Assembly: GCA_030533085.1 (NCBI GenBank) | Contig: JAUNJZ010000011.1 | Span: 1-63,102 of the forward strand | Source of the DNA: Synergistaceae bacterium | GTDB lineage: Bacteria; Synergistota; Synergistia; Synergistales; Synergistaceae | Length of the DNA: 63,102 nucleotides | Direction of reading: 5' to 3' | Shown: one piece after another, positions 4,227 to 63,102 of the stretch | How positions within the stretch are numbered: the first letter of the stretch is position 1 | How the letters are laid out: each line of letters begins with the position of its first letter | The notes under the pieces: model-generated | The model's input: only the letters and a program-made list of their open reading frames with translations | Told to the model about the DNA's origin: nothing | The model's database searches: none | Position numbers and translations under genes: made by a program

Positions 4227-4941
4227 AAGGAACGCCCTCCTTGAATACTGCGAAAACCAAATCCTCTATCATGGACGAGGACAGCCTTCTCTGTTCCATA
4301 ACGCGTATCAATGAATCCAGCTCGGAGGCTCTTTTATAATCGCGCTTTTCCGCCAGATCTCTCATCCATCCCTGCATTTCAAGAAGAAGTATCTCCGGGC
4401 TGGGCTTACGCCCCGTCTCCATCCATTTCGCCCATTCCTGCGGGCTTTCCGGCATTGGATGCGGCTTCAATATTTCTTCCGGCAAATCTATATGTATCGA
4501 CCAGATGCGGCTTTTTATCGTCGGTATCAGCTTGTCTTCCTCACAGAGAAAGAGAATGTTCCCGCGCTCCGGCGGCTCCTCCGTGATCTTCAGCAGGCTG
4601 TTTGAAGCCTCCTTCGACAGCCTGTCAGCCATCCAGACCACCGCAAGCCGTCTCTTTGCCGAGAGCGGATGCAGAGCCAGCTCACCCTGCAAGCGGCGGC
4701 ACTCGTCAATCGTGGGGGCTGAGGCCGGAGCGCCGGCGCATATCATATCTGGATGCCGCCCGTCTTTCCACAGATCGTCCTCTCCAAGGACAAGCCGCCC
4801 GTACAGCTCGGCGAAGCTCTCCTGCATCACGGCGGGGATCGTCACTCCGACAGACTGCGGCTGACGACCGGCCTCCGCCGCCGCGCACAGCTCCTTCCAG
4901 CCGGAGGAAGCCTCTATAAGCGACGCAGTTTCAGGGCTCAC
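4198..4941 (-). CDS. holB: DNA polymerase III delta-prime-like clamp loader subunit
   Basis: Clamp-loader subunit of the DNA polymerase III holoenzyme. The 247-aa protein lacks a Walker A P-loop, as delta-prime does. It keeps the sensor-like stretch KEASNSLLKITEEPP followed by ILFLCEEDKLIPTIKSR (about 113-148), corresponding to the TLLKxLEEPP...SRC region, with the SRC arginine present but Trp after SRI. It is shorter than the usual 300-330 aa, so part of the N-terminal AAA+ core and the collar domain look reduced. It overlaps tmk by 4 bases and ricT by 29. Confidence 0.85.
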   Translation of the reverse strand: MSPETASLIEASSGWKELCAAAEAGRQPQSVGVTIPAVMQESFAELYGRLVLGEDDLWKDGRHPDMICAGAPASAPTIDECRRLQGELALHPLSAKRRLAVVWMADRLSKEASNSLLKITEEPPERGNILFLCEEDKLIPTIKSRIWSIHIDLPEEILKPHPMPESPQEWAKWMETGRKPSPEILLLEMQGWMRDLAEKRDYKRASELDSLIRVMEQRRLSSSMIEDLVFAVFKEGVPYEQISGGLW

Positions 4942-5540
4942 AGCGAAAGCCCCCTCGCTGAAAGCTTCTCCTTCACCACTTCAAAAAGCTCCGCAGGAGT
5001 CCTCGTTCCGCATTCTATCACTATCCACCGCTGAGGTTCCGCCGCGGCAAGCGCGCGGTATCCCTCGTCTATCCTCCGCATGAAGGGCAGCCCCTCTTTT
5101 TCAAAAGAATCCGGCCTGCCTCGCCCGGCGACGCGCGCCAACGCCAGCTCAGGTTCTATATGAAATAAAAGCGTAACGTCAGGAACGGGAAAAGCGGCCA
5201 GCGCAGCCGCTTCGCGCAGCGGCTCCAGCGGCATTCCCCTGCCCCACACCTGATAGGCGAGAGTGGAGTCGTGATAGCGCTCGCAGACGACATGACGACC
5301 GGAGGCAAGCGCCGGAGAAATCACCCTGGCGACATGCTCCGCGCGGTCAAGAAGAAAGAGGAAAGCCTCGCTCCACGGATGGCGGAGCGAACCGTCAAGC
5401 GCCATGCCGCGCAGCGCGCCGCCGCCCTCCCAGCCGCCGGGTTCGCGCGTCGCGAGCGCGCCGCCGCCAAGAGCCTCGCAGAGCAAAGCAGCCTGCGTAG
5501 ATTTGCCGCATCCGTCTATCCCCTCGAAGGTAATAAACAT
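4938..5540 (-). CDS. tmk: Thymidylate kinase
   Basis: Phosphorylates dTMP to dTDP. The 200-aa length matches the family. The P-loop FEGIDGCGKST lies at 5-15, the DR(A)EH motif is LFLLDRAEH, and the thymidine-site segment is RYHDSTLAYQ. An upstream in-frame ATG adds ten residues, but ATG 5540 follows GGGGATGAG and gives the canonical MFITFEGIDG start. First gene of the minus-strand run ending at purB; the 4-base ATGA overlap with holB indicates coupling. Confidence 0.96.
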   Translation of the reverse strand: MFITFEGIDGCGKSTQAALLCEALGGGALATREPGGWEGGGALRGMALDGSLRHPWSEAFLFLLDRAEHVARVISPALASGRHVVCERYHDSTLAYQVWGRGMPLEPLREAAALAAFPVPDVTLLFHIEPELALARVAGRGRPDSFEKEGLPFMRRIDEGYRALAAAEPQRWIVIECGTRTPAELFEVVKEKLSARGLSL

Positions 5541-5552
5541 CTCATCCCCGCC

Positions 5553-5580
5553 TTTACAATTTATTATCATAACATATAAT
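5553..5580 (+). promoter_or_regulatory. Promoter of the MBL-fold gene
   Basis: TTTACA (5553-5558), 16-base spacer, TATAAT (5575-5580), 48 bases before the ATG at 5628. The same AT-rich 87-base gap must also hold the minus-strand tmk promoter. A candidate there is TTGGGT-17-TATGTT, but it is weaker and not annotated separately. Confidence 0.6.
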
Positions 5581-5627
5581 TCATCACAATATAACCCAAA
5601 TTTCTGGAAGAAAGGCAGTGACGGCGG

Positions 5628-6512
5628 ATGTACGAACTTATTCAGGCCGGAGAAAAGAGCTGGTATATAAAAAGCCCCACGAACGTAGGAGTTTACCGTA
5701 TCGGCGGCGAGGAGGTCTGTCTTATAGATTCCGGCAACGACAAAGAGGCGGGGCGTAAAATATTAAAGGCCGTGACTGCTATGGGCTGGAAAATATCCTC
5801 CATCGTCAACACTCACGCCAACGCCGATCACATCGGAGGCAATCAGTTCATACAGAGCCGCACCGGCTGCCGCGTCATGTCAAGCGACGTTGAAAACGCC
5901 TTCGCGCGCCATACTATGCTTGAAAGCTCCATGCTCTACGGAGGCCGCCCCTACGCGAAGCTGCGCAATAAATTCCTCATGGCGAAGGCGACAGACGAGA
6001 CCTGCGGCATTGAAGAAAATCTGCCTCAGGGGCTGGAAATAATAAAGCTCCCCGGTCATTACCTCGACATGATAGGGCTGATGGCGGACGACGGAGTATG
6101 TTTCCTCGCGGACTCGCTTTTCAGCGCCGAAATAATAAAAAAATACCACATCGTATTCCTCTACGACGCGGCGAAATTTCTTGAGACGCTCGACATGCTG
6201 GAAAGGCTTGAAGCAAAGATCTTCATACCGTCGCACAACGAGCCTTTGGAAGATATAAAAGAGCTTATAGCCGTCAACCGCGCAAAGATTCTGGAAATCG
6301 CGGCGCTGCTGGAAGATATAGCCCGCGAGCCAAAGAGCTTTGAGAGAATCCTGAAAGAGCTCTTCGACCATTACGGACTGACGATGGACGACAACCAGTA
6401 CGTCCTTGTCGGCAGCACGGTAAAATCATATCTTTCATATCTATACGACGCAGGAAAGCTGAAGGCGGAATTCTCCGACAACGAGATGCTGTGGAGCGCG
6501 GTTACGGAATAG
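5628..6512 (+). CDS. Metallo-beta-lactamase fold hydrolase with altered metal motif
   Basis: 294-aa cytosolic MBL-fold protein. The first metal motif reads THANADHIGGN (62-72), so the HxHxDH signature has Asn at its second histidine position (N65). The later ligands look present: LPGHYLDMIG, the FLADSLF aspartate and FIPSHNEP. The C-terminal 80 residues are helical and could be a LACTB2-like winged-helix tail. The substrate is unknown; thiolesterase, glyoxalase II-like and RNase-like members share this architecture. The loss of one zinc ligand suggests mononuclear metal binding or altered chemistry. It stands alone, divergent from tmk. Confidence 0.8.
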   Translation: MYELIQAGEKSWYIKSPTNVGVYRIGGEEVCLIDSGNDKEAGRKILKAVTAMGWKISSIVNTHANADHIGGNQFIQSRTGCRVMSSDVENAFARHTMLESSMLYGGRPYAKLRNKFLMAKATDETCGIEENLPQGLEIIKLPGHYLDMIGLMADDGVCFLADSLFSAEIIKKYHIVFLYDAAKFLETLDMLERLEAKIFIPSHNEPLEDIKELIAVNRAKILEIAALLEDIAREPKSFERILKELFDHYGLTMDDNQYVLVGSTVKSYLSYLYDAGKLKAEFSDNEMLWSAVTE

Positions 6513-6589
6513 CCCTGGGCAGGCCGGTATTGTCAAAATACCCGCTTTTCTGTAACGGCCATTTAGCGCAGCAGAAGGACAAGATGCCG

Positions 6590-6624
6590 TTGCGTTTCAT
6601 CTTGCATTTTGTTATACTTGTATA
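6590..6624 (+). promoter_or_regulatory. Promoter with overlapping palindromic operator of the toxin-antitoxin pair
   Basis: TTGCGT (6590-6595), exact 17-base spacer, TATACT (6613-6618). The inverted repeat TATAC-TT-GTATA (6613-6624) covers the -10 box. This is the arrangement expected for autorepression by a ribbon-helix-helix antitoxin. An AAGGAGGAG ribosome binding site precedes the antitoxin ATG. Confidence 0.65.
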
Positions 6625-6654
6625 GCAAAATTGTAAAACAAGGAGGAGATAAAA

Positions 6655-6879
6655 ATGCTTGCCATACGCCTTGACGAAAAAACAGAGACGCGCCTTGAAA
6701 ACCTTGCCGAACAAACTGGAAGGACAAAAACATGGTACGCCCGCAAGGCTATAGAGAGCTATCTTGACGATCTTGAAGACGCGGCCCTCGCCGCTTCCGC
6801 CTATGAAGAATATCTCCTTGACGGCGGGTGCTCGTCATCTCTGAAAGAGGTCAGAGAGCGCCTTGGGCTGGAGAGTTGA
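6655..6879 (+). CDS. Ribbon-helix-helix antitoxin (RelB/ParD-like)
   Basis: 74-aa protein starting LAIRLDEKTETRLENLA, a typical beta-strand plus helix of CopG/RHH DNA-binding domains. It continues with GRTKTWYARKAIESYL, the second RHH helix. The C-terminal part (acidic, leucine-rich) should be the toxin-neutralising segment. It begins after a strong AAGGAGGAG site and overlaps the toxin gene by 17 bases. Expected to bind and mask the downstream toxin and to repress its own promoter. Confidence 0.88.
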   Translation: MLAIRLDEKTETRLENLAEQTGRTKTWYARKAIESYLDDLEDAALAASAYEEYLLDGGCSSSLKEVRERLGLES

Positions 6880-7129
6880 GTTTTCGCGGCGGGCGGAAAA
6901 AGAGCTCGCCGCAATTAACAGAGTCGACGCGCTGCGCATCACCGGATATCTTGCTGAAGTGGAAAAACTGCATGACCCAAGGCTTCGCGGCAAGGCTCTC
7001 TCAGCTAACCTTTCCGGTCTCTGGCGCTACCGTGTCGGCTCCTGGCGAGTGCTATGCCGTATTGAGGACGGACTTCTGGTCGTCCTCGTGGTGCATATAG
7101 GACATCGAAGCTCCGTATATAACGGATAA
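6863..7129 (+). CDS. RelE/ParE family toxin
   Basis: 88 aa with the RelE/ParE layout: WRVEFSRRAEKELAAI at the N-terminus, a central LRGKALSANLSGLWRYRVGSWRVLCRIEDG, and a C-terminal VVLVVHIGHRSSVY that matches the conserved xxGHRxxVY ending. RelE-type members cleave mRNA in the ribosomal A site, while ParE-type members poison gyrase. The presence of Arg and His in the C-terminal motif favours RelE-like, but this is not decisive. Appears intact, in an accessory stretch next to the selC islet. Confidence 0.88.
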   Translation: MGWRVEFSRRAEKELAAINRVDALRITGYLAEVEKLHDPRLRGKALSANLSGLWRYRVGSWRVLCRIEDGLLVVLVVHIGHRSSVYNG

Positions 7130-7208
7130 AGTGTTAATTTTATAACTAAAAAATATTAGTTCTCTTTCCTGAGATGGTGCCCAACACTCACCGCTGGATT
7201 ATTCCGGA

Positions 7209-7292
7209 CAGTTGAAAATCATGTATCATTGATAACCTCGTTTTTTTGATGCTTGGGTTTAACAGGATTGCTCTGAATTAGCGTGTAGGAAC
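7209..7292. repeat. Imperfect direct repeat, left copy (att-like)
   Basis: This AT-rich segment aligns in the same orientation with 8380-8483. Shared blocks in order are TTGAAAATC, TTGATA, TTTTT, CTTGGG, ACAG, GCTCTG, ATTA and GCGTGTAGGA. In the right copy the last block is part of the T arm/acceptor of tRNA-Sec. Similarity stops right after that block. This fits a degenerate attachment-site copy at the far side of an islet carrying the ADP-ribosylglycohydrolase gene. The rest of 7130-7404 holds no recognisable gene. Confidence 0.55.
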
Positions 7293-7404
7293 CATAACTT
7301 TCAAATTACACTTGGCATCACTGACTTTTAAAGCACAAGGCAATTTCGCAGTACGGTTGGAGGCACGGTAATGGTCTTGATTGAATCGGTACCCGGTTAT
7401 AATA

Positions 7405-8361
7405 TTATGCCGCAGTGCTTAACAATAATTTTTTTGCCAATCCTACAATATCGCGCGCCCAATCCTGGTATTCTCTGCGAGGGTGGAGTCCAGCGGCTGT
7501 ATCGCACTCCTGAACAGCTTTTATCCAAGGCGTGGGAAAGCTTGCGAAGCCCCTGTATGCGCCAACAAGCGCACCTGCTATAGCGGCGTTTGTGTCTGTA
7601 TCGCCGCCCATGCGAACAGTATCTATTATTGCGCTGCTCGCGCTGTCTGCGTGCGTGAGCCTGTAAACGGCGTTTTGCAGGGCGAGAAGAACATAGCCTG
7701 AATGCTGGAGCATTGTGCTGTCGGGCGGCGATACCATGCCGTTTTTGATGGCGTCAAGCACATCTGGCTCATCACACATGCCGGCAGTATGACAGTCCAT
7801 CATGTGTCCGCATATTGCTTCCGGGGCGCCGCCTGTTTTTATGGCGTAAGCTATTCCGCGAGCCAGAGCCATATTGGCCATGCGGCATACGTTATTGGGG
7901 TGTGTAAGTTCCGCATCCATAATTGCAACATTACCGGCAGTTACATAATCGTGCGCGTAGCATACTCCAATTGGACTGACGCGCATAAGCGCGCCGTTGG
8001 CTTTACTCTGTACGTTCTTATTTAGACCACGGCTGCTCAGCGCCTTGTGAACCGTTCCGCCAATGTCAAAAGGGCGGGAGTTCAGCCAGTCAATATATCC
8101 ATTCACCGTCAGCAGCGCAGAGTATCCAAAACCTTCTATAAGGCTTTTTGCCAAGACAACAGCCATCTCACTGTCGTCTGTAATTTGTCCTGCTGCCGTG
8201 CCCCATACGCTGCTTGGCCTCATGGAACAGTCTCCGTTCATGACTTCACTGATTTGCTCCGGCGACATAAATTCGTACTGAGCGCCAAACGCATCGCCGC
8301 AGAACTGCCCTGCCAGGCAGCCAGCGGCTCTGTCTAACACAGCGTCTGATATTCTTCTCAT
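7405..8361 (-). CDS. ADP-ribosylglycohydrolase family protein
   Basis: About 318 aa of the ARH/DraG-like fold, which removes ADP-ribose from proteins or small molecules using two Mg ions. The metal motifs are visible: TDDSEMAVV near residue 65 and MGGDTDTNAAIAGALVGAYRG near 250. Start: ATG 8361 has AAGG nine bases upstream; an ATG at 8370 is also possible but has no spaced ribosome site. Flanked by imperfect direct repeats next to selC and surrounded by AT-rich DNA, so probably acquired. No partner ADP-ribosyltransferase is in the window, so the target is unknown. Confidence 0.9.
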   Translation of the reverse strand: MRRISDAVLDRAAGCLAGQFCGDAFGAQYEFMSPEQISEVMNGDCSMRPSSVWGTAAGQITDDSEMAVVLAKSLIEGFGYSALLTVNGYIDWLNSRPFDIGGTVHKALSSRGLNKNVQSKANGALMRVSPIGVCYAHDYVTAGNVAIMDAELTHPNNVCRMANMALARGIAYAIKTGGAPEAICGHMMDCHTAGMCDEPDVLDAIKNGMVSPPDSTMLQHSGYVLLALQNAVYRLTHADSASSAIIDTVRMGGDTDTNAAIAGALVGAYRGFASFPTPWIKAVQECDTAAGLHPRREYQDWARDIVGLAKKLLLSTAA

Positions 8362-8379
8362 AGCCCTCATCCTTATCGT

Positions 8380-8483
8380 CTGGGTTATTGAAAATCGTGT
8401 TTTGTTGATATCACTGGATTTTTAGATTGTCTTGGGCTCGACAGAAACGCTCTGGATTATAAATTGGCGGAGGCGTGTAGGAA
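8380..8483. repeat. Imperfect direct repeat, right copy, running into tRNA-Sec
   Basis: Right copy of the repeat described at 7209-7292. It covers the gap between the ADP-ribosylglycohydrolase gene and tRNA-Sec plus the last 19 bases of the tRNA gene. The two copies bracket about 1.1 kb. Tandem or successive integration events at the selC 3' end would leave this pattern; no integrase is visible nearby. Confidence 0.55.
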
Positions 8484-8561
8484 TCGAACCTACCTGGGCG
8501 GGCGTTACCCACCCACAACGGATTTGAAGTCCGGGTCCAGCACCAGCTGAAACGCACCTCC
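8465..8561 (-). tRNA. selC: tRNA-Sec (anticodon TCA)
   Basis: Selenocysteine tRNA on the minus strand, 97 bases including an encoded CCA. The acceptor arms GGAGGTG/CGCCTCC pair, followed by discriminator G and CCA. The anticodon stem CGGA/TCCG holds the loop CTTCAAA, giving anticodon TCA. The long variable arm GGGTGGG/CCCGCCC is typical of tRNA-Sec. The T arm GTAGGTTCGATTCCTAC is intact. It implies a selenocysteine pathway (SelA, SelB, SelD) elsewhere in the genome. I saw no gene here with an obvious in-frame TGA. Confidence 0.95.
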
Positions 8562-8578
8562 GTCTGAGGACGCGGTAA

Positions 8579-8607
8579 AGTCTAGCAGAAATACGCCTCC
8601 CCCGCAA
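8579..8607 (-). promoter_or_regulatory. Promoter of tRNA-Sec
   Basis: On the minus strand, TTGCGG (8607-8602), an exact 17-base spacer and TAGACT (8584-8579) lie 17 bases upstream of the tRNA-Sec 5' end, which fits direct transcription of the tRNA. Confidence 0.6.
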
Positions 8608-8625
8608 TCCTCTTTATGCACAAAA

Positions 8626-9933
8626 TCAGGATATTCTGCCCAGTATCAGTTTCCGGGGGCGCGCCTTTTCCGCGATCTCCCAGCAGCCGCTCAGATGTTT
8701 CATCGCGTCGGCAAGCTTGTTATCGTCGTTGTAGAAAAGCTCAACGACGGCGTCTCCGGCCCTGACTTTATCGCCTGTCTTTGCTCTGAGGCGTATGGCG
8801 GCGGCGTAGTCTATTCTGTCGTCTACTTTCATTCTGCCGCCTCCGAGCGCGCGCAGCGCCTCTCCTATTGCTCTCGCGTCAAGCTTTGAGACGACGCCCT
8901 CCCTTTCGCTTTTCAGAGCGAAGCTCTTTTGCGCGCGAGGCAGTATATCCAGCGGCCTTTCCAGTATTTCCGTAGCTCCGCCCTGAGCCTTTATCAGTTC
9001 GGCGAATTTTTTCAGCGCTCTTCCGTCGTCAAGCGCGGCTGAGGCTATCGCCGCCCCTTCATCCTCGTCTTTGGCGTGCCCGGATATCGCAAGCATCTGA
9101 GCGCACAGGGCGACGCAGAGTTCCCTTGTGTCGGCCGGGCCGCCCCCTTTCAGAACTTCTATCGCCTCGTAGACTTCTGCGGCGTTTCCCACCCATTCTC
9201 CGAGCGGCTCTTCCATGTCGGTGATTAGGGCAACGCTTTTTCTTCCGAATCTTTTTGAGAGGGAGACAAGAGCGGCGGCAAGCTCTCCGGCTGATTCACG
9301 GTCATTCATAAACGCGCCGCTGCCGCATTTTACGTCGAATACATATCCGCAGGCTCCCCCAACCAGCTTTTTGCTCACTATGCTGGCGGCTATGAGCTGC
9401 ACTTTCGGCACGGTTCCGGTCACGTCGCGCAGCCTGTAGAATTTTCCTTCGGCGGGGGCCAGCTCCTTTGAGTGGCCGGATATGGCGCAGCCTATATTCC
9501 GTATCTGAGACAAAAATTCCCCCGCTTCAAGCTGCATACGCATTCCTGGTATCGATTCAAGCTTATCCACCGTTCCGCCGGAGAAGCCCAGCCCGCGGCC
9601 GGAAAGCTTCGACACGACGGCTCCGCAGGCCGCGGCAAGCGGCAGCACGACAAGCGTCGTTTTGTCCCCCACCCCGCCGGTGCTGTGTTTATCAACGATA
9701 CGAATGTCGTCGGGAAATGAGTATCTTTCGCCAGAGGCGGCAAGAAGCTCTGTGAAGCAGCTCAGCTCTTCGTCGTCAAGCCCGTTTAGGAAGGCCGCCA
9801 TCAGCCATGCCGCCGTCTGGTAGTCCGGTACGCTGCCATCCATTACCCCGCGGATAAATTCCTGAAATTCGCTCTTGCTGTGACTGCCGCCGTCGCGTTT
9901 TTTCTCTATAAATTCGATCATATTGAACATCAT
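8626..9933 (-). CDS. pdp: Pyrimidine-nucleoside (thymidine) phosphorylase
   Basis: 435-aa enzyme that phosphorolyses thymidine/uridine to base plus (deoxy)ribose-1-phosphate. The family signature KHSTGGVGDKTTLVVLPLAAA lies near 80-100, followed by SGRGLGFSGGTVDKLESIPG, the phosphate and sugar binding region. Length fits Pdp/DeoA. The start overlaps the purine nucleoside phosphorylase stop (ATGA) after GAGG; an internal ATG at 9920 is possible. Together with the upstream pnp it forms a nucleoside-salvage pair. Substrate breadth (Pdp versus DeoA) cannot be decided by eye. Confidence 0.92.
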   Translation of the reverse strand: MMFNMIEFIEKKRDGGSHSKSEFQEFIRGVMDGSVPDYQTAAWLMAAFLNGLDDEELSCFTELLAASGERYSFPDDIRIVDKHSTGGVGDKTTLVVLPLAAACGAVVSKLSGRGLGFSGGTVDKLESIPGMRMQLEAGEFLSQIRNIGCAISGHSKELAPAEGKFYRLRDVTGTVPKVQLIAASIVSKKLVGGACGYVFDVKCGSGAFMNDRESAGELAAALVSLSKRFGRKSVALITDMEEPLGEWVGNAAEVYEAIEVLKGGGPADTRELCVALCAQMLAISGHAKDEDEGAAIASAALDDGRALKKFAELIKAQGGATEILERPLDILPRAQKSFALKSEREGVVSKLDARAIGEALRALGGGRMKVDDRIDYAAAIRLRAKTGDKVRAGDAVVELFYNDDNKLADAMKHLSGCWEIAEKARPRKLILGRIS

Positions 9934-10754
9934 AGGCGCACCTCGTCAATAAAGCGTTCTATCAGCGCGGCGACGGATTCGCCGCAGCGCGACATGACTT
10001 CCAGCACTTCACGGTGGGTAAGCTTCTCCGACGTGATTCCGGCGGCGTAGTTCGAGGCGCAGGATAGCCCCAGTACGCGAATGCCCATGTGGTTTGCCGC
10101 CGTCACTTCGGGAACGGTGGACATTCCGACCAGGTCGGCCCCCATTGCGCGCGCCATTCTTATTTCTGCCGGGGTCTCGAACGACGGGCCGCTGAATGCC
10201 ATGTAGACGCCCTTTTTCAGCTCCAGCCCCTCGGCGGCGGCCGCTTTTTCCGCCGCTCTGATGAATTCTCCGTCATAGGCGGCGCTCATGTCTGGGAAGC
10301 GCTCGCCCCATTTATCGTTGTTGACTCCGATAAGCGGATTCGTCCCCATGAAGTTGATATGGTCCACTATCGCGGCGACGGAACCGGGGCGGATATCCGG
10401 GTTGACCGCACCGGAGGCGTTTGTGGCTACAAGCGCCTTTATTCCCAGCGAGCCGAGGACGCGAATAGGAAAGGTCACCTCCGCCATCGTATAGCCCTCG
10501 TAATAGTGGACGCGCCCCTGCATGACCGCGACCCGCTTCCCTCCCATGGAGCCGAGTATCAGCTTTCCTTCATGTCCGGGGGCGGTCGAACGCGGCCAGT
10601 ATGGGATTTCCTCGTAGGGGATTATTTCAGGACGTTCCAGCACGTCGGCGACGCGGCCAAGGCCGGAGCCGAGTATTACAGCAATCTCCGGGCTGGCGCA
10701 GCCCCTTTTTCCGATATATCGCAGCGCCTCTTCTACCTTGTCCCAATGGTACAT
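9930..10754 (-). CDS. Purine-nucleoside phosphorylase (trimeric, PNP/MTAP family)
   Basis: 274 aa; phosphorolyses inosine/guanosine-type nucleosides. Motifs: VILGSGLGRVAD (phosphate loop, about 26-37), GRVHYYEGY (about 80-88), the base-site segment ATNASGAVNPDI and MGADLVGMSTVPEVTAANHMG. Length and motifs match the trimeric class rather than hexameric DeoD. ATG 10754 follows GGAGGAG. It lies between a tyrosine recombinase and pdp. A role on methylthioinosine in the methionine salvage route, whose other enzymes are at 24.7-28.3 kb, is possible but not shown. Confidence 0.92.
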   Translation of the reverse strand: MYHWDKVEEALRYIGKRGCASPEIAVILGSGLGRVADVLERPEIIPYEEIPYWPRSTAPGHEGKLILGSMGGKRVAVMQGRVHYYEGYTMAEVTFPIRVLGSLGIKALVATNASGAVNPDIRPGSVAAIVDHINFMGTNPLIGVNNDKWGERFPDMSAAYDGEFIRAAEKAAAAEGLELKKGVYMAFSGPSFETPAEIRMARAMGADLVGMSTVPEVTAANHMGIRVLGLSCASNYAAGITSEKLTHREVLEVMSRCGESVAALIERFIDEVRL

Positions 10755-10766
10755 GTTATCTCCTCC

Positions 10767-11672
10767 TCAGTTCGCGCGCGGGTGGTATTTGTCGTAGTTG
10801 TCGCGCAGCTCCGTATCAAGATGCGTGTATTTCTCCGTTGTCATGATGGAGCTGTGTCCGAGCAGCTCCTGTAAGGTTCTCTGGTCCATGCCGTTGCGCA
10901 GCAGGTGCGTCGCGAAGGTGTGGCGAAGCACATGCGGATGCAGCCGCTGCTTCGGTATGCCGGCCTGCATGCCGCGTTTGTGGAGTATTACCCACAGCGT
11001 CTCTCTATGGAGCTGGCGGCCTGTACGCGATAGGAATATCCATTCGGCCTTTTGTTTGTCGAGCTGAGGCCGGTATCCGTCGATATATTCCTCCACGACG
11101 CGGCGTACCGCTCCGATGTATGGAACGCTGCGCTCTTTTTCGCCTTTGCCGCGCGTGTAGATGAGGCCGTTTTCCGGGTCAAGATCCCGCAGTCTGGCCG
11201 CACACAGCTCTGAGGCCCGCATTCCGGCTCCGTAGGCCAGTTCTATGAACGCGCGGTCGCGCTTGCCGAGCGCGCTGCCATCCTCGCAGGCGTTTATTAT
11301 TCTCTGTATCTCGCCCTCCGTCATTATCTGCGGGAGCTTCTTCTCCCTTGAGGGCAGGGGCGCGAGGCGCGGCAGGCTGTCAGTAACGCCGTCGAATTGC
11401 AGGAATATGGCGAAGGAGCGCATTACCGCGCCAAGCCGCTGGACTGAGCTTTTTTTGCGTCCCTCCGCCGTTTCGCCGTTCAGGAAGCGCGTTATCATTT
11501 CCCGCTTCACGTCGAATGGGTCGCAATCGCAGCCGCGGCAGTAATCGAACCATTTGGAAAGGTCGGAAAGGTAGGCTCGCAGAGTGTTTTCGCTGCCGCC
11601 GCGTTCAAGCCTGATATAGTCGCCGAATCTTTCGGCCGTCTTTTTTAACTCACCGGCTTCTCTAAAGCTCAT
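10767..11672 (-). CDS. Tyrosine recombinase XerC/XerD-like
   Basis: 301-aa site-specific recombinase. N-terminal SAM-like core-binding domain (about 10-100) and catalytic domain with R152 (MRASEL), K176 (RGKGEKER), H247-x-x-R250 (HVLRHTFATHLL), H273 (LLGHSS) and nucleophile Y282 (KYTHL). This is the full catalytic set. Length and operon setting among housekeeping genes point to chromosome dimer resolution rather than a mobile element integrase. XerC versus XerD is not decided. It overlaps the nudix gene by 4 bases. Confidence 0.92.
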   Translation of the reverse strand: MSFREAGELKKTAERFGDYIRLERGGSENTLRAYLSDLSKWFDYCRGCDCDPFDVKREMITRFLNGETAEGRKKSSVQRLGAVMRSFAIFLQFDGVTDSLPRLAPLPSREKKLPQIMTEGEIQRIINACEDGSALGKRDRAFIELAYGAGMRASELCAARLRDLDPENGLIYTRGKGEKERSVPYIGAVRRVVEEYIDGYRPQLDKQKAEWIFLSRTGRQLHRETLWVILHKRGMQAGIPKQRLHPHVLRHTFATHLLRNGMDQRTLQELLGHSSIMTTEKYTHLDTELRDNYDKYHPRAN

Positions 11673-12220
11673 TTTTCCGCTTTGCGCGCCAGATACCAGT
11701 AATAGGCCATCAGCGTCTTGCCGTCGATTATTCTGTTTTCCGCTATCAGCTCTTCTATCTCGCGGCTGGAAAATTTACAGACTTTAAGATACTCGTCGTC
11801 GTCCTCCTGCAATTTTGAAGCTATCAGCTCTGTTGCATAGTAGAGCGTTATCTTCTCTGTTGTGAAGCCGGGCGATGTGTAAAATTCGGCGATTTTCTCC
11901 ATCCTGCCGGGCCTGAAGCCGATTTCCTCCCTCAGCTCGCGCACCGCCGTTTCTCTCCCGTCCTCTCCCTCTTCGACGAGTCCGGCCGGTATCTCGTAGA
12001 TCTCCTCGTCTATAGCGTGGCGGTACTGTCTGACGAGGATTATTTTTCCATCCTCGTCTACCGGAAGCATCGCGACGGCGGCCTTATGCAGCACCACCTC
12101 GCGCAGCTTTTCAGCTCCTGAAGGGAATTTCACCGTGTCCACCCTGAGCTCTACTATGCGCCCCTTGTAGGGAAAGTCGCTCTTCACTATATTTCTTAAA
12201 AGCTTTTTCTGCTCGCTCAT
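11669..12220 (-). CDS. NUDIX hydrolase, ADP-ribose pyrophosphatase type
   Basis: 183-aa cytosolic hydrolase. The Nudix box GLVEEGEDGRETAVRELREEIGF (about 81-103) fits Gx5Ex7REUXEExGU exactly. Neighbouring segments KIILVRQYRHAIDEEIYEIPAG and FYTSPGFTTEKITLYYA are typical of ADP-ribose pyrophosphatases, which hydrolyse ADP-ribose to AMP and ribose-5-phosphate. It overlaps the recombinase start by 4 bases and follows fmt by 11 bases. The exact substrate is inferred from family resemblance. Confidence 0.9.
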   Translation of the reverse strand: MSEQKKLLRNIVKSDFPYKGRIVELRVDTVKFPSGAEKLREVVLHKAAVAMLPVDEDGKIILVRQYRHAIDEEIYEIPAGLVEEGEDGRETAVRELREEIGFRPGRMEKIAEFYTSPGFTTEKITLYYATELIASKLQEDDDEYLKVCKFSSREIEELIAENRIIDGKTLMAYYWYLARKAEK

Positions 12221-12231
12221 TTTATCGCCCC

Positions 12232-13164
12232 CTATTCCAGCCTTTCGCCGCCGCAGATGCGAAGGCCGCGCGCCCAGTCCTCCGCGCGCAGCGCCCTCTT
12301 GCCCTCCGGCTGCACCTCCGTCAGCAGCAGCGCCCCTTCCCCGCAGATTATCGCAGGGCGGCCGTCAATCACGGCGCAGCAGCCGGCTTCGCCGGAGGGG
12401 ACATCGACCGCGTCGGCGGCGTGTATTCGCAGCCTTTTTCCCCTCGCCGTGCAGTAAACGCCGGGCGCTTTTCCGATGCCGCGTATCCTGTTTACGATTT
12501 CCCGGGCTGGGAGCTGCCAGTCGATACGCCCCTCTGCCTTATCTATCTTAGGCGCGAGGCTCGCCCCCTCCGACGGCTGCGGCGTAAAGCGCCAGCTTGC
12601 CGGGCCATCTTCGCAGAGCAGGCGCAGCAGCGTCTCAGAGCCGAGCAGGGCCGCTTTCTCAAGCAGCGAGGCGTAATCGTCCCGCGCGTCGATCTCAAGC
12701 TCCGGCTGCGCCAGCAGCGGACCGGAATCCATTCCCTCGTCGAGGCGGAAGAGCGTTACGGCAGTGGCGGTAAGGCCGTCCATCAGCGCGCGCTGTATCG
12801 GCGCTGAGCCGCGGTAGCGCGGCAGTCTCGACGGGTGGATGTTCAAGCAGCCGTATGGGGCGGCGGAAAGCACCGGCTCCTTTATCATCTGGCCGAAGTC
12901 TATCACCAGTATCAGGTCGGGGGCATTCTCCTTTATCCACTCCACGCGCTCGCTGTCAGCCGAGAGCTTTTCCGTCGTGCAGCATGGGAGGGAAAGTTTT
13001 TCGGCCAGCTCCCAGACGGCTGTATTTTGAAGAAAGAGGCCGCGCCCCGCCGCTCGCGGTGCGGCTGTGAGCACCCAGAGCGGGCGCACTCTCGCGGCGA
13101 TTATTTCAAGGCAGCGGGCCGCGAAGCGGCCGGAGCCGATAAAGGCTATAGTCGGCTCTTTCAT
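12232..13164 (-). CDS. fmt: Methionyl-tRNA formyltransferase
   Basis: Formylates initiator Met-tRNA using 10-formyl-THF. 310 aa, normal length. The catalytic segment GCLNIHPSRLPRYRGSAPIQ (about 106-125) contains the Asn/His/Ser triad region and the RYRG loop. The later TLFRLDEGMDSGPLL provides the catalytic Asp. The C-terminal domain (about 205-310) is the tRNA-binding part. It overlaps def by 4 bases, the classic def-fmt pair, and follows GGAGAAG. Confidence 0.96.
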   Translation of the reverse strand: MKEPTIAFIGSGRFAARCLEIIAARVRPLWVLTAAPRAAGRGLFLQNTAVWELAEKLSLPCCTTEKLSADSERVEWIKENAPDLILVIDFGQMIKEPVLSAAPYGCLNIHPSRLPRYRGSAPIQRALMDGLTATAVTLFRLDEGMDSGPLLAQPELEIDARDDYASLLEKAALLGSETLLRLLCEDGPASWRFTPQPSEGASLAPKIDKAEGRIDWQLPAREIVNRIRGIGKAPGVYCTARGKRLRIHAADAVDVPSGEAGCCAVIDGRPAIICGEGALLLTEVQPEGKRALRAEDWARGLRICGGERLE

Positions 13165-13655
13165 TTCTTCTCCGCCGCTTTTTTTGCGATCTTCTTTTTG
13201 AGGAACTGCCGTTTAAGCGGCGATACCCTGTCTATCAGCAGCCTGCCGTTGAGGTGGTCTATCTCGTGCGAAAAGACGCAGGCTATGAAGCCGTCGTGCT
13301 CGTCGCGATGTTCTTCCCCGTTCTCGTCGCGGTAGACTACAGTTATGCGCTCCGGCGAATCGACCTTTTCATAGATGCCGGGAAAGCTCAGGCAGCCCTC
13401 TTCGTTGCGGACGGAGCCTTCCGATGCGATTATGCGCGGGTTTATAAGCACGTATCTGTCGCCCTTGTAGTCAATGACGACGACCTTTTTCGCCTCGCCT
13501 ATCTGCGGAGCCGCAAGGCCGACGCCGTCGTTCGCGTACATCGTATCCCACATATCCGCCACAAGCGTTTTCAGCTCTTCGTCAAACTTCTCTATCTCGC
13601 GCGTCTCCTCCCGCAATACCGGATCGGGGTAGAGGCATATTTTTCTAAGGGCCAT
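13161..13655 (-). CDS. def: Peptide deformylase
   Basis: Removes the formyl group from nascent N-termini. 164 aa. All three motifs are intact: GVGLAAPQIG (44-53), EGCLSFPG with metal ligand C88, and FSHEIDHLNG with H130, E131 and H134. An in-frame ATG six codons upstream exists, but ATG 13655 has GGAGGT six bases before it and gives the usual MALRKI start. First gene of the def-to-pdp operon. Confidence 0.96.
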   Translation of the reverse strand: MALRKICLYPDPVLREETREIEKFDEELKTLVADMWDTMYANDGVGLAAPQIGEAKKVVVIDYKGDRYVLINPRIIASEGSVRNEEGCLSFPGIYEKVDSPERITVVYRDENGEEHRDEHDGFIACVFSHEIDHLNGRLLIDRVSPLKRQFLKKKIAKKAAEKK

Positions 13656-13736
13656 AAACTGACCTCCATTCATAGTTGGTTTATGGAAGCGGAGCGGCTT
13701 CGAGGAAGGAAGCCGTTCTATATGTTATTTTAACGT

Positions 13737-13774
13737 AAAAGCGGCCCGCGCTCAAGGCAAAGAGCGCGGGCCGC
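13737..13774 (-). terminator. Intrinsic terminator of the alaS-rpsA operon
   Basis: Stem 13741-13753 pairs perfectly with 13762-13774 (13 bp, GCGGCCCGCGCTC) around an 8-base loop. On the minus strand it is followed by TTTT and an AT-rich run. It lies about 28 bases after the rpsA stop. Confidence 0.85.
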
Positions 13775-13801
13775 CGGTTCTGCGTCGTATATCAGATAAT
13801 T

Positions 13802-15406
13802 TTATTCGGCCTCTTCCTGCTCGCGGCTCCTGAGCAGATCTCCGAAGGTAAAGTTCATCTCTTCCTGCGGAAGCTGGCTGTTCGGGTTTTCCTGCCTCCT
13901 GCGCTCTCCGCCCTCGGGGCGGCGGCGGCGCTGCTGGCGCTCTTCGCGTCTCGGCTGCTGCTGATGCTGTTCAGCCGCCGGAGCGCCGTGCTCGCGGTTT
14001 TCCTCGCGCGGCGCGCGTCTTGCCGGCTCTTCGCCCGCCGGACGCAGGCTGAGGCGGATGCGGCGCTCTGAGGGATTCACCTCGAGTATGCGGGCTGTGA
14101 CCTCCTGTCCCTCGGAAAGCACTTCCTTCGGGTTTTCAACTCTCTGTGAGGAAAGCTGGGAGATATGGATAAGCCCTTCGATGCCCTCTTCAAGCTCTAC
14201 GAATGCGCCGAAATCAGCGATCCTGACGACCTTGACGGGAACTTCGGCGTCCTTCTGATACTTCTCGGCAGCCGCCTTCCAGGGATCGTTGAGCTGCTTG
14301 TAGCCAAGGCTGATGCGCTTGCGCTCGGTGTCCACCTCGATGATGGAGACTTCCACCTTCTGTCCCTTTTTGAGCACCTCTTTCGGGTGCTTGATGCGCG
14401 TCCAGCTCAGGTCTCCGATATGGATGAGCCCTTCGACGCCCGCTTCTATCTCTACAAAAGCTCCGAATTCAGTCAGGTTGGTGACGGTTCCCTCCGTGGT
14501 CTTGCCGCGCGTCCAGCGTTCCGCGACGCTGTTCCACGGATCGTCAAGGGTCTGGCGGATCGAGAGGGAGACTCTGTTGTTCTCCTTGTCGATGCCGATG
14601 ACCTTAACCCTGATATGGTCGCCCTTAGCGACGATATCTTTGGCCTTCGCGCTGCGCTGCCATGAGAGTTCGCTGATATGGACAAGTCCTTCCATCGCAC
14701 CGAGATTGACGAAAACGCCGAATGAAGTGATGCTGCTGACGTCGCCCTCAAGCACGTCGCCCTCCTGCACCTGATCATAGAAGGCCTGGCGTGTGCTTGA
14801 AAGCTCTTCTTCGATGAGGCTGCGGCGTGAAAATACGAGACGGCGCTTCCTGCGATCCTTTTCAATGAGCTTGACGGGGAATTCCTGATCGAGCAGCTTT
14901 CCGGGATTCACCCCGTGCCCCTCCTGCGTGAGATGCGAAATGGGGATGAAGCCCTCTATTCCGCAGCAGCTCACGATGAGGCCGCCCTTGACCTTGCGGA
15001 TTCCCTTTACCGTAACCGTCTCGCTCTTCTCCGCCTCTTCCTCGAGTCTGTTCCAGCGCTCGTCGAATTCGCAGCGCCAGCGTGAAAGTCCGAGCTGGGC
15101 GTCCTCGCCCTGGCCGATATTTGTGATCTGAACTCTGACCTTCGCGCCGTTCTCAGGCTCGGGAGTCTCTTCTACGAGAACCTTGTGAGTCCATTCCTTG
15201 CGGGGAAGAAAACCTTCGCATTTGTAGCCTACGTCTACAAGCCAGCCGTCCTCCTGTGAGTCGATTATCGTTCCGTCCACGACCTTGCCGCGGTGGAAAT
15301 CGCCCATCACATCGTACTGCTGCATCATTTCTTCCATTGTTTCTTCTTTTTCCTGCGTTTCGTTCTGTGTTTCCATTTCGTCTTCTGTGCGAAGCTCGTC
15401 AACCAT
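13802..15406 (-). CDS. rpsA: Ribosomal protein bS1 (five S1 domains)
   Basis: 534-aa RNA-binding protein with five S1 repeats, each recognisable by patterns such as GVFVNLGAMEGLVHISELSW and GAFVEIEAGVEGLIHIGDLSW. The last three are the most conserved; the first two are divergent, as in proteobacterial S1. The C-terminal 55 residues are Arg/Gln/Glu-rich and unstructured-looking. An open reading frame extends further upstream, but ATG 15406 has GGAGG nine bases before it. Sits 17 bases after ispH; IspH-S1 linkage, even fusion, is known in Firmicutes. Helps mRNA docking on the 30S subunit. Confidence 0.93.
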   Translation of the reverse strand: MVDELRTEDEMETQNETQEKEETMEEMMQQYDVMGDFHRGKVVDGTIIDSQEDGWLVDVGYKCEGFLPRKEWTHKVLVEETPEPENGAKVRVQITNIGQGEDAQLGLSRWRCEFDERWNRLEEEAEKSETVTVKGIRKVKGGLIVSCCGIEGFIPISHLTQEGHGVNPGKLLDQEFPVKLIEKDRRKRRLVFSRRSLIEEELSSTRQAFYDQVQEGDVLEGDVSSITSFGVFVNLGAMEGLVHISELSWQRSAKAKDIVAKGDHIRVKVIGIDKENNRVSLSIRQTLDDPWNSVAERWTRGKTTEGTVTNLTEFGAFVEIEAGVEGLIHIGDLSWTRIKHPKEVLKKGQKVEVSIIEVDTERKRISLGYKQLNDPWKAAAEKYQKDAEVPVKVVRIADFGAFVELEEGIEGLIHISQLSSQRVENPKEVLSEGQEVTARILEVNPSERRIRLSLRPAGEEPARRAPREENREHGAPAAEQHQQQPRREERQQRRRRPEGGERRRQENPNSQLPQEEMNFTFGDLLRSREQEEAE

Positions 15407-63049: not shown

Positions 63050-63102
63050 GGCGGCATAGCCAAGTGGTAAGGCAGAGGACTGCAAATCCTTTATCCCCAG
63101 TT
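63050..63102 (+). tRNA. tRNA-Cys (anticodon GCA), cut by window end
   Basis: Starts GGCGGCATAGCCAAGTGG, with D arm and anticodon arm AGGAC-TGCAAAT-CCT giving anticodon GCA. The sequence ends within the T arm (ATCCCCAGTT), so the 3' half of the T arm and the acceptor lie outside. The visible part matches bacterial tRNA-Cys closely. Confidence 0.93.

Follow-up and report, generated by a model that had tools for sequence, protein, structure and literature searches.

Accessory inserts at the 3' ends of tRNA genes have been described in several forms, and those closest to the locus studied here are the tDNA islands of Islander, the cis-mobilizable elements (CIMEs) and the selC islands of Escherichia coli. 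As defined by Islander (PMC4383910), a tDNA island comprises an intact tDNA, a downstream 3' tDNA fragment in the same orientation and the cargo between them; the crossover may fall in the T-stem region, the displaced fragment may carry small deletions, and candidates that are <2 kb or integrase-free are rejected. CIMEs (PMC5704250) have no integration or transfer genes, lie beside a tRNA 3' end and can accrete in tandem at that same end. The selC islands of E. coli (e.g., the LEE) are multi-gene, with about 17 kb and more among those given under selC in the part of the source used here (PMC7545054).

Turning to a 63,102-nucleotide stretch of DNA from a Synergistaceae bacterium (hereafter the window), we evaluated a candidate islet in which an ADP-ribosylglycohydrolase (ARH) gene lies beside the tRNA-Sec gene selC. 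Judging by the flanking genes of a named Synergistetes record, the host groups with Synergistota and not with enterobacteria, and relative to the E. coli selC islands (PMC7545054), the target tRNA gene is the same while the phylum is another and the cargo is one gene. As in Islander tDNA islands, an intact tRNA gene stands at one end, and set against the 3' fragment of such islands the window has an 11-nt exact match in register with an 85-bp repeated flank, a match that taken alone falls below shuffles; unlike those islands, the window's fragment stops short of the tRNA 3' end (13 nt gone), and the islet has no integrase and measures 1173 bp against a required 2 kb (PMC4383910). Like a CIME, it lacks integration and transfer genes and sits at a tRNA 3' end; where a CIME has attL and attR, it has a direct repeat with a damaged left site, such that working sites are only putative, and no parental ICE or IME was identified for it (PMC5704250). 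Because the islet departs from Islander in three respects (it has no integrase, is too short and has a fragment that does not extend to the tRNA end), and because its left site is damaged where a CIME would retain attL and attR, we describe it as working like a decayed tRNA islet, file it under neither class and place it in the broad kind of tRNA-associated accessory inserts.

The proposed islet, its cargo and the flanking repeat

The proposed islet spans 7292..8464 (1173 bp), bounded on one side by the displaced tRNA fragment and on the other by selC, with a G+C of 0.504 compared with 0.570 for the window. Its cargo is a single ARH gene, as originally predicted (7405..8370, minus strand; 321 aa as called, with an internal ATG a few codons on that by eye fits the ribosome-binding site better), which is the only substantial ORF of the interval and whose product matches PF03747 at full length (187.5 bits against a gathering score of 26.2; profile positions 1-286 of 287). 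Its nearest solved structures are DraG-type (E 1e-24), with the TDD and GGD-D motifs aligning, and it scores below the cut-offs of both the DraG equivalog TIGR02662 (120.5 vs 337.05 bits) and the Tri1 equivalog NF041672 (78 vs 490 bits). The islet yielded no integrase domain, again as predicted, and PF00589 finds its only match on the window's contig in the conserved xerD gene, which lies 2.3 kb beyond selC.

Evaluating the distribution of ARH, we found it to be patchy, with 12 of 120 genomes carrying it (host included; E 1e-20 or better), none of the loci L041-L059 doing so, and a single relative (41%) in IMG/VR. Distant relatives occur in 38 phage and 111 plasmid records, all of them <60% identical and uninformative about the origin of the islet. 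A defence-system library gave no match for ARH nor for the neighbouring toxin-antitoxin pair. Across a wider stretch around the homologues of 11 relatives, three distant ARH homologues lie about 0.4-1.1 kb downstream of tRNA clusters (L159 of G007, L160 of G061, L165 of G080) and a fourth (G116) lies about 2 kb from a tRNA-Pro; a general ARH-tRNA link was dropped, as no tRNA-end repeat brackets ARH in any of the 11.

The tRNA gene itself (8465..8561, minus strand, anticodon TCA; ARAGORN, and Rfam RF01852 at 75.8 bits) is intact and would be the target, or the regenerated tRNA, of an insertion, and SelB is present in the same genome above its cut-off (382 bits). Local alignment across the two sides of the ARH gene showed 7187-7291 and 8371-8483 to be colinear, which we take as a true repeat with a left arm at 7187..7280 and a right arm at 8371..8464, the latter filling the intergenic space from the ARH start to the selC 3' end. 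The colinear blocks originally predicted at 7209-7292 and 8380-8483 were thus borne out, and their score lies above the shuffled background: aligning 7130-7404 with 8371-8561 gave 48, where 2000 dinucleotide shuffles had a mean of 17.2 and a maximum of 33, and excluding the tRNA portion (7130-7280 vs 8371-8464) again gave 48, with a shuffle maximum of 30. Against a harder background of 1566 real 150-bp segments (G+C <=45%, from the window and 16 related loci), the top scores were 32 for the right copy and 29 for the left; the best match of the right copy was the segment just downstream of selC in the related genome G015 (32), and this same segment ranked fourth for the left copy (28). Among random between-locus pairs, 11 of 17138 reached 48 (maximum 151), in a pool that still contained orthologous segments of related genomes, which probably explain these 11.

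The bulk of the repeat lies outside the tRNA, covering ~85 bp downstream of its 3' end, and both copies have 35-37% G+C. When blocks were picked by hand (7212-7280 against 8388-8461), 53 of the 69 alignment columns agreed, and the 16 that differ indicate that the arms were not identical in the recent past. Neither segment has a significant copy elsewhere in the host genome (next-best matches E 1.8 and 1.6), and with each arm thus single-copy and other matches at E 1.6 or worse, a dispersed repeat is ruled out. Searching the left flank in 180 genomes of the order returned nothing better than E 0.005, all of it short (about 18-34 bp), and a 21-bp arm match in G004 (L057), which is coding-like by eye and near a contig end, was taken as chance. 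The word CTGGRTT has three occurrences in the right arm, one in the left and two in G015; since it was chosen post hoc and a 9-mer test on the arms found rarity in the right arm only (4/300), a role as an arm-type binding word is a hint only. A promoter and terminator scan of 7100-8700 gave nothing above shuffles.

Both copies terminate in the exact 11-mer GCGTGTAGGAA (7281-7291 and 8473-8483), which at the right belongs to the T-arm of tRNA-Sec and at the left is proposed to be a displaced, damaged 3' fragment of that tRNA, i.e., an att remnant. The left copy lacks 13 nt that at the right hold the tRNA 3' end and the acceptor 3' strand, and it is on this account damaged as a tRNA fragment. 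Consequently, where the original prediction had the blocks ending in GCGTGTAGGA as T-arm/acceptor sequence, the T-arm part stands and the acceptor part does not, whereas its statement that similarity stops at the 11-mer agrees with our data: an extension into the tRNA body was rejected, as 7292-7404 against the rest of the tRNA was matched by 108 of 1000 shuffles. On its own the 11-mer falls short of significance: when the final 50 nt of selC were scanned over the 8464 bp that lie downstream, the score was 22 and shuffles went up to 26. The case rests on the 11-mer being in register after the arms. No exact match to the tRNA-end pattern was present in IMG/VR.

Gene order around selC in related genomes

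Related genomes share the core order rpsA-def-fmt-nudix-xerD-punA-pdp-selC-tmk, and in seven of them (G007, G024, G032, G004, G022, G002, G005) tmk follows selC directly bar a short spacer, which argues that genes between selC and tmk are accessory. The sole named record retrieved with the window's flanking genes is a Synergistetes MAG (L058), where these are close to the window's and in identical order. Nearest tmk in the window is a resident accessory gene for a metallo-beta-lactamase-fold (MBL) hydrolase (5628..6512, plus strand; PF00753), which is also found between tmk and selC in G015, G028 and G020. Beyond it lies a ribbon-helix-helix/RelB-like antitoxin with a ParE/RelE-family toxin (6655..7129, plus strand; NF048017 at 81.4 bits, over cut-off, and PF05016 at 54.3 bits), a pair found at this place only in the window and G015, and then ARH, found at this place only in the window.

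G015 (L041), which belongs to a different genus from the host such that the comparison is not a same-species one, reads tmk-MBL-antitoxin-toxin-[one arm]-selC, with an arm of ~85 bp in single copy beside selC and with no ARH match in the genome. Having the same neighbourhood with one arm and no ARH, it suggests that the ARH segment is likely the insert, and the toxin-antitoxin pair, being common to both, is an older resident lying outside it, consistent with its predicted position just outside the islet. Compared with the post-selC segment of G015, the right copy was equalled by 0 of 1000 shuffles and the left by 2 of 1000, and their identities to the G015 arm (left 45/68 columns, right 46/74) cannot tell which copy is the older. 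The left-copy match seems to continue towards the toxin gene, a stretch which alone was reached by 113 of 2000 shuffles; we propose that the left arm is either the pre-insertion selC-downstream flank or the arm of an older islet. The G015 locus also holds two apparent insertion sequences, IS3-like and IS66-like by eye (4447-5815 and 6358-8574), and the metallo-hydrolase gene is interrupted by one of them.

Repeats and inserts at the selC 3' end across the order

A selC-like match was found in 91 of the 180 genomes of the order, and downstream DNA was taken for 90 of these (all but G128, whose selC sits at the edge of a contig), with the named record L058 added. Scanning the 91 loci with an ARAGORN selC (L085, with a selC fragment only, dropped; 6 of the 91 with <1.3 kb downstream), we found a selC-end repeat above all 100 shuffles in three: G010 (77 vs 25), G125 (42 vs 30) and, by a narrow margin, G041 (30 vs 29). 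The other 88 did not pass, the window's 11-mer included. The original prediction had pointed to selC as a hotspot known in enterobacteria; islands at the same tRNA end do occur elsewhere in the order, although with two clear and one marginal clean repeat among 91 loci the hotspot is modest.

The clearest of these is in G010 (L046, 8175-9094), an integrase-free islet of ~0.9 kb with one gene, where 49 bp of the selC 3' half are repeated 0.87 kb downstream. Its cargo is a 191-aa ORF that weakly resembles the exonuclease subunit of a phage DNA polymerase (PHROG 192, E 9e-7) and has no match in Pfam or the PDB. The DNA after the displaced fragment matches the DNA directly after selC in G007, G024 and G032 (0 of 1000 shuffles each), whereas the DNA directly after G010's own selC matches none of the three (731 to 904 of 1000 shuffles), and in the more distant G004 and G022 neither stretch finds a match. 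With this empty-site match in relatives, G010 is, as read from its sequence, a cleaner case than the window's islet: both have one gene, no integrase and the same tRNA end, and where G010 has a clean 49-bp repeat with an exonuclease-like cargo over ~0.9 kb, the window has a damaged 11-mer with ARH.

Larger and more fragmentary cases were also found. G125 (L088, about 4850-14980) has a 10.1-kb selC island with a perfect 21-bp tRNA-end repeat, ORFs that by eye look like TRAP transporter, amidase and dehydrogenase genes, and a short ORF beside selC that is weakly DUF6538-like (22.1 bits, below the cut-off of 27) and may be a truncated integrase. G039 has a tyrosine recombinase ORF adjoining selC (PF00589, 93.5 bits) with no repeat above shuffles, and in G027 (L085, 2974-3002) an orphan copy of the selC 3' end, 29 nt long, sits on a different contig from selC itself and may mark the far boundary of an island. 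In G020 (L043, 8668-9552) a BRO-family gene stands alone between selC and the metallo-hydrolase gene, and a candidate repeat around it was rejected (763 of 1000 shuffles). Titles and abstract openings in the literature searched gave nothing on selC islands in Synergistota or on one-gene selC islets, which is no proof of absence.

Proposed origin of the islet and competing explanations

We consider it reasonably probable that the window holds a decayed tRNA-targeted islet at the selC 3' end that works like a cis-mobilizable element. On this explanation, a small DNA circle bearing ARH together with its own selC 3' end and the roughly 85 bp that follow it would have recombined with the resident selC 3' end, most likely through the action of a tyrosine recombinase within the T-arm. 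The new copy would have restored selC and displaced the former 3' end, along with its flank, to 1.2 kb downstream, and the displaced tRNA fragment would then have lost 13 nt to leave 7281-7291. The islet now has no integrase and is probably unable to excise; it would be either a shrunken island or an element that was never larger and depended on an integrase in trans, and the host's other tyrosine recombinases (9 PF00589 matches including xerD, none of them linked to the site) make such movement possible. In support are a repeat that exceeds shuffles as well as the background of real low-GC segments and that is in register with selC, the single arm without ARH in G015, the match of both arms to G015's post-selC segment, tmk directly after selC in seven genomes, the patchiness of ARH, and the independent insertions at the same tRNA end in G010, G125, G039 and G027. 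Against it are a tRNA fragment of 11 nt that has no acceptor strand and is not significant alone, a larger part of the repeat lying outside the tRNA (unlike in G010 and G125), the absence of an integrase and the 16 of 69 differing columns between the arms, as well as G015 being of another genus with insertion sequences in the region and the G020 BRO insert having no repeat. The integration geometry of the original prediction therefore stands as far as ARH lies between two selC-tail copies and G015 has one arm without ARH, and is weakened where the att-like fragment is 11 nt, damaged and not significant alone.

The main rival, which would leave much the same trace and which we regard as possible if rather doubtful, is that homologous recombination brought in a selC tail with ARH from another Synergistota strain, or that the tail was duplicated locally, in either case with no site-specific recombinase. 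A repeat lying mostly downstream of the tRNA, arms that look like diverged orthologous selC tails (53/69, 45/68 and 46/74) and a tRNA part that is short and damaged would all fit such homology-driven gain; the repeat nonetheless ends within the tRNA T-arm, and G010 and G125 have clean tRNA-end repeats in the same slot. Much further from consideration is chance similarity of AT-rich intergenic DNA, which the 35-37% G+C of both segments might invite and to which we give almost no credence, as 0 of 2000 dinucleotide shuffles and 0 of 1566 real low-GC segments (for either copy) reached the observed score; at the level of these two backgrounds a chance or compositional origin of the repeat is refuted. 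An improbable refinement of the favoured islet reading is serial accretion, where the toxin-antitoxin pair would have arrived in an older islet that had its own arm, and an ARH islet bearing a related arm would have entered the same site afterwards, making 7187-7291 the junction of the two elements. It draws on the arm and the pair both occurring in the window and G015 and both going undetected in the MBL-bearing G028 and G020, on layers that go from shared (MBL) to private (ARH) towards selC, and on the published model of tandem CIME accretion (PMC5704250); no second arm was found between MBL and antitoxin (541 and 582 of 1000 shuffles), however, and the argument concerns two genomes, with loss in the G028 and G020 lineages equally likely.

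Returning to the tRNA-targeted islet, these observations suggest that selC, best known as an enterobacterial island site, receives inserts in a distant phylum too, and that such inserts may consist of no more than a single gene, without an integrase, a kind that searches on the Islander model rule out by design. The Synergistota host seems to have gained a gene for an ADP-ribose-removing enzyme beside selC, an ordinary acquisition that is unusually small. We think it unlikely, as a generalization, that Synergistota carry a class of minimal integrase-free one-gene islets (about 0.9-1.2 kb, with ARH as cargo here and an exonuclease-like protein in G010) that use the selC 3' end to dock and rely on the integrases of other elements for movement in trans; if true, their length of <2 kb and lack of an integrase would hide them from island finders that need an integrase and a minimum length.

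Two minor features were observed apart from the islet. A partial tRNA (Rfam RF00005) at 63050-63102 of the window is cut by the contig end, and G010 has three neighbouring tyrosine recombinase ORFs on one strand (C91:1237-3698), an arrangement which we take to resemble a recombinase-in-trio element.
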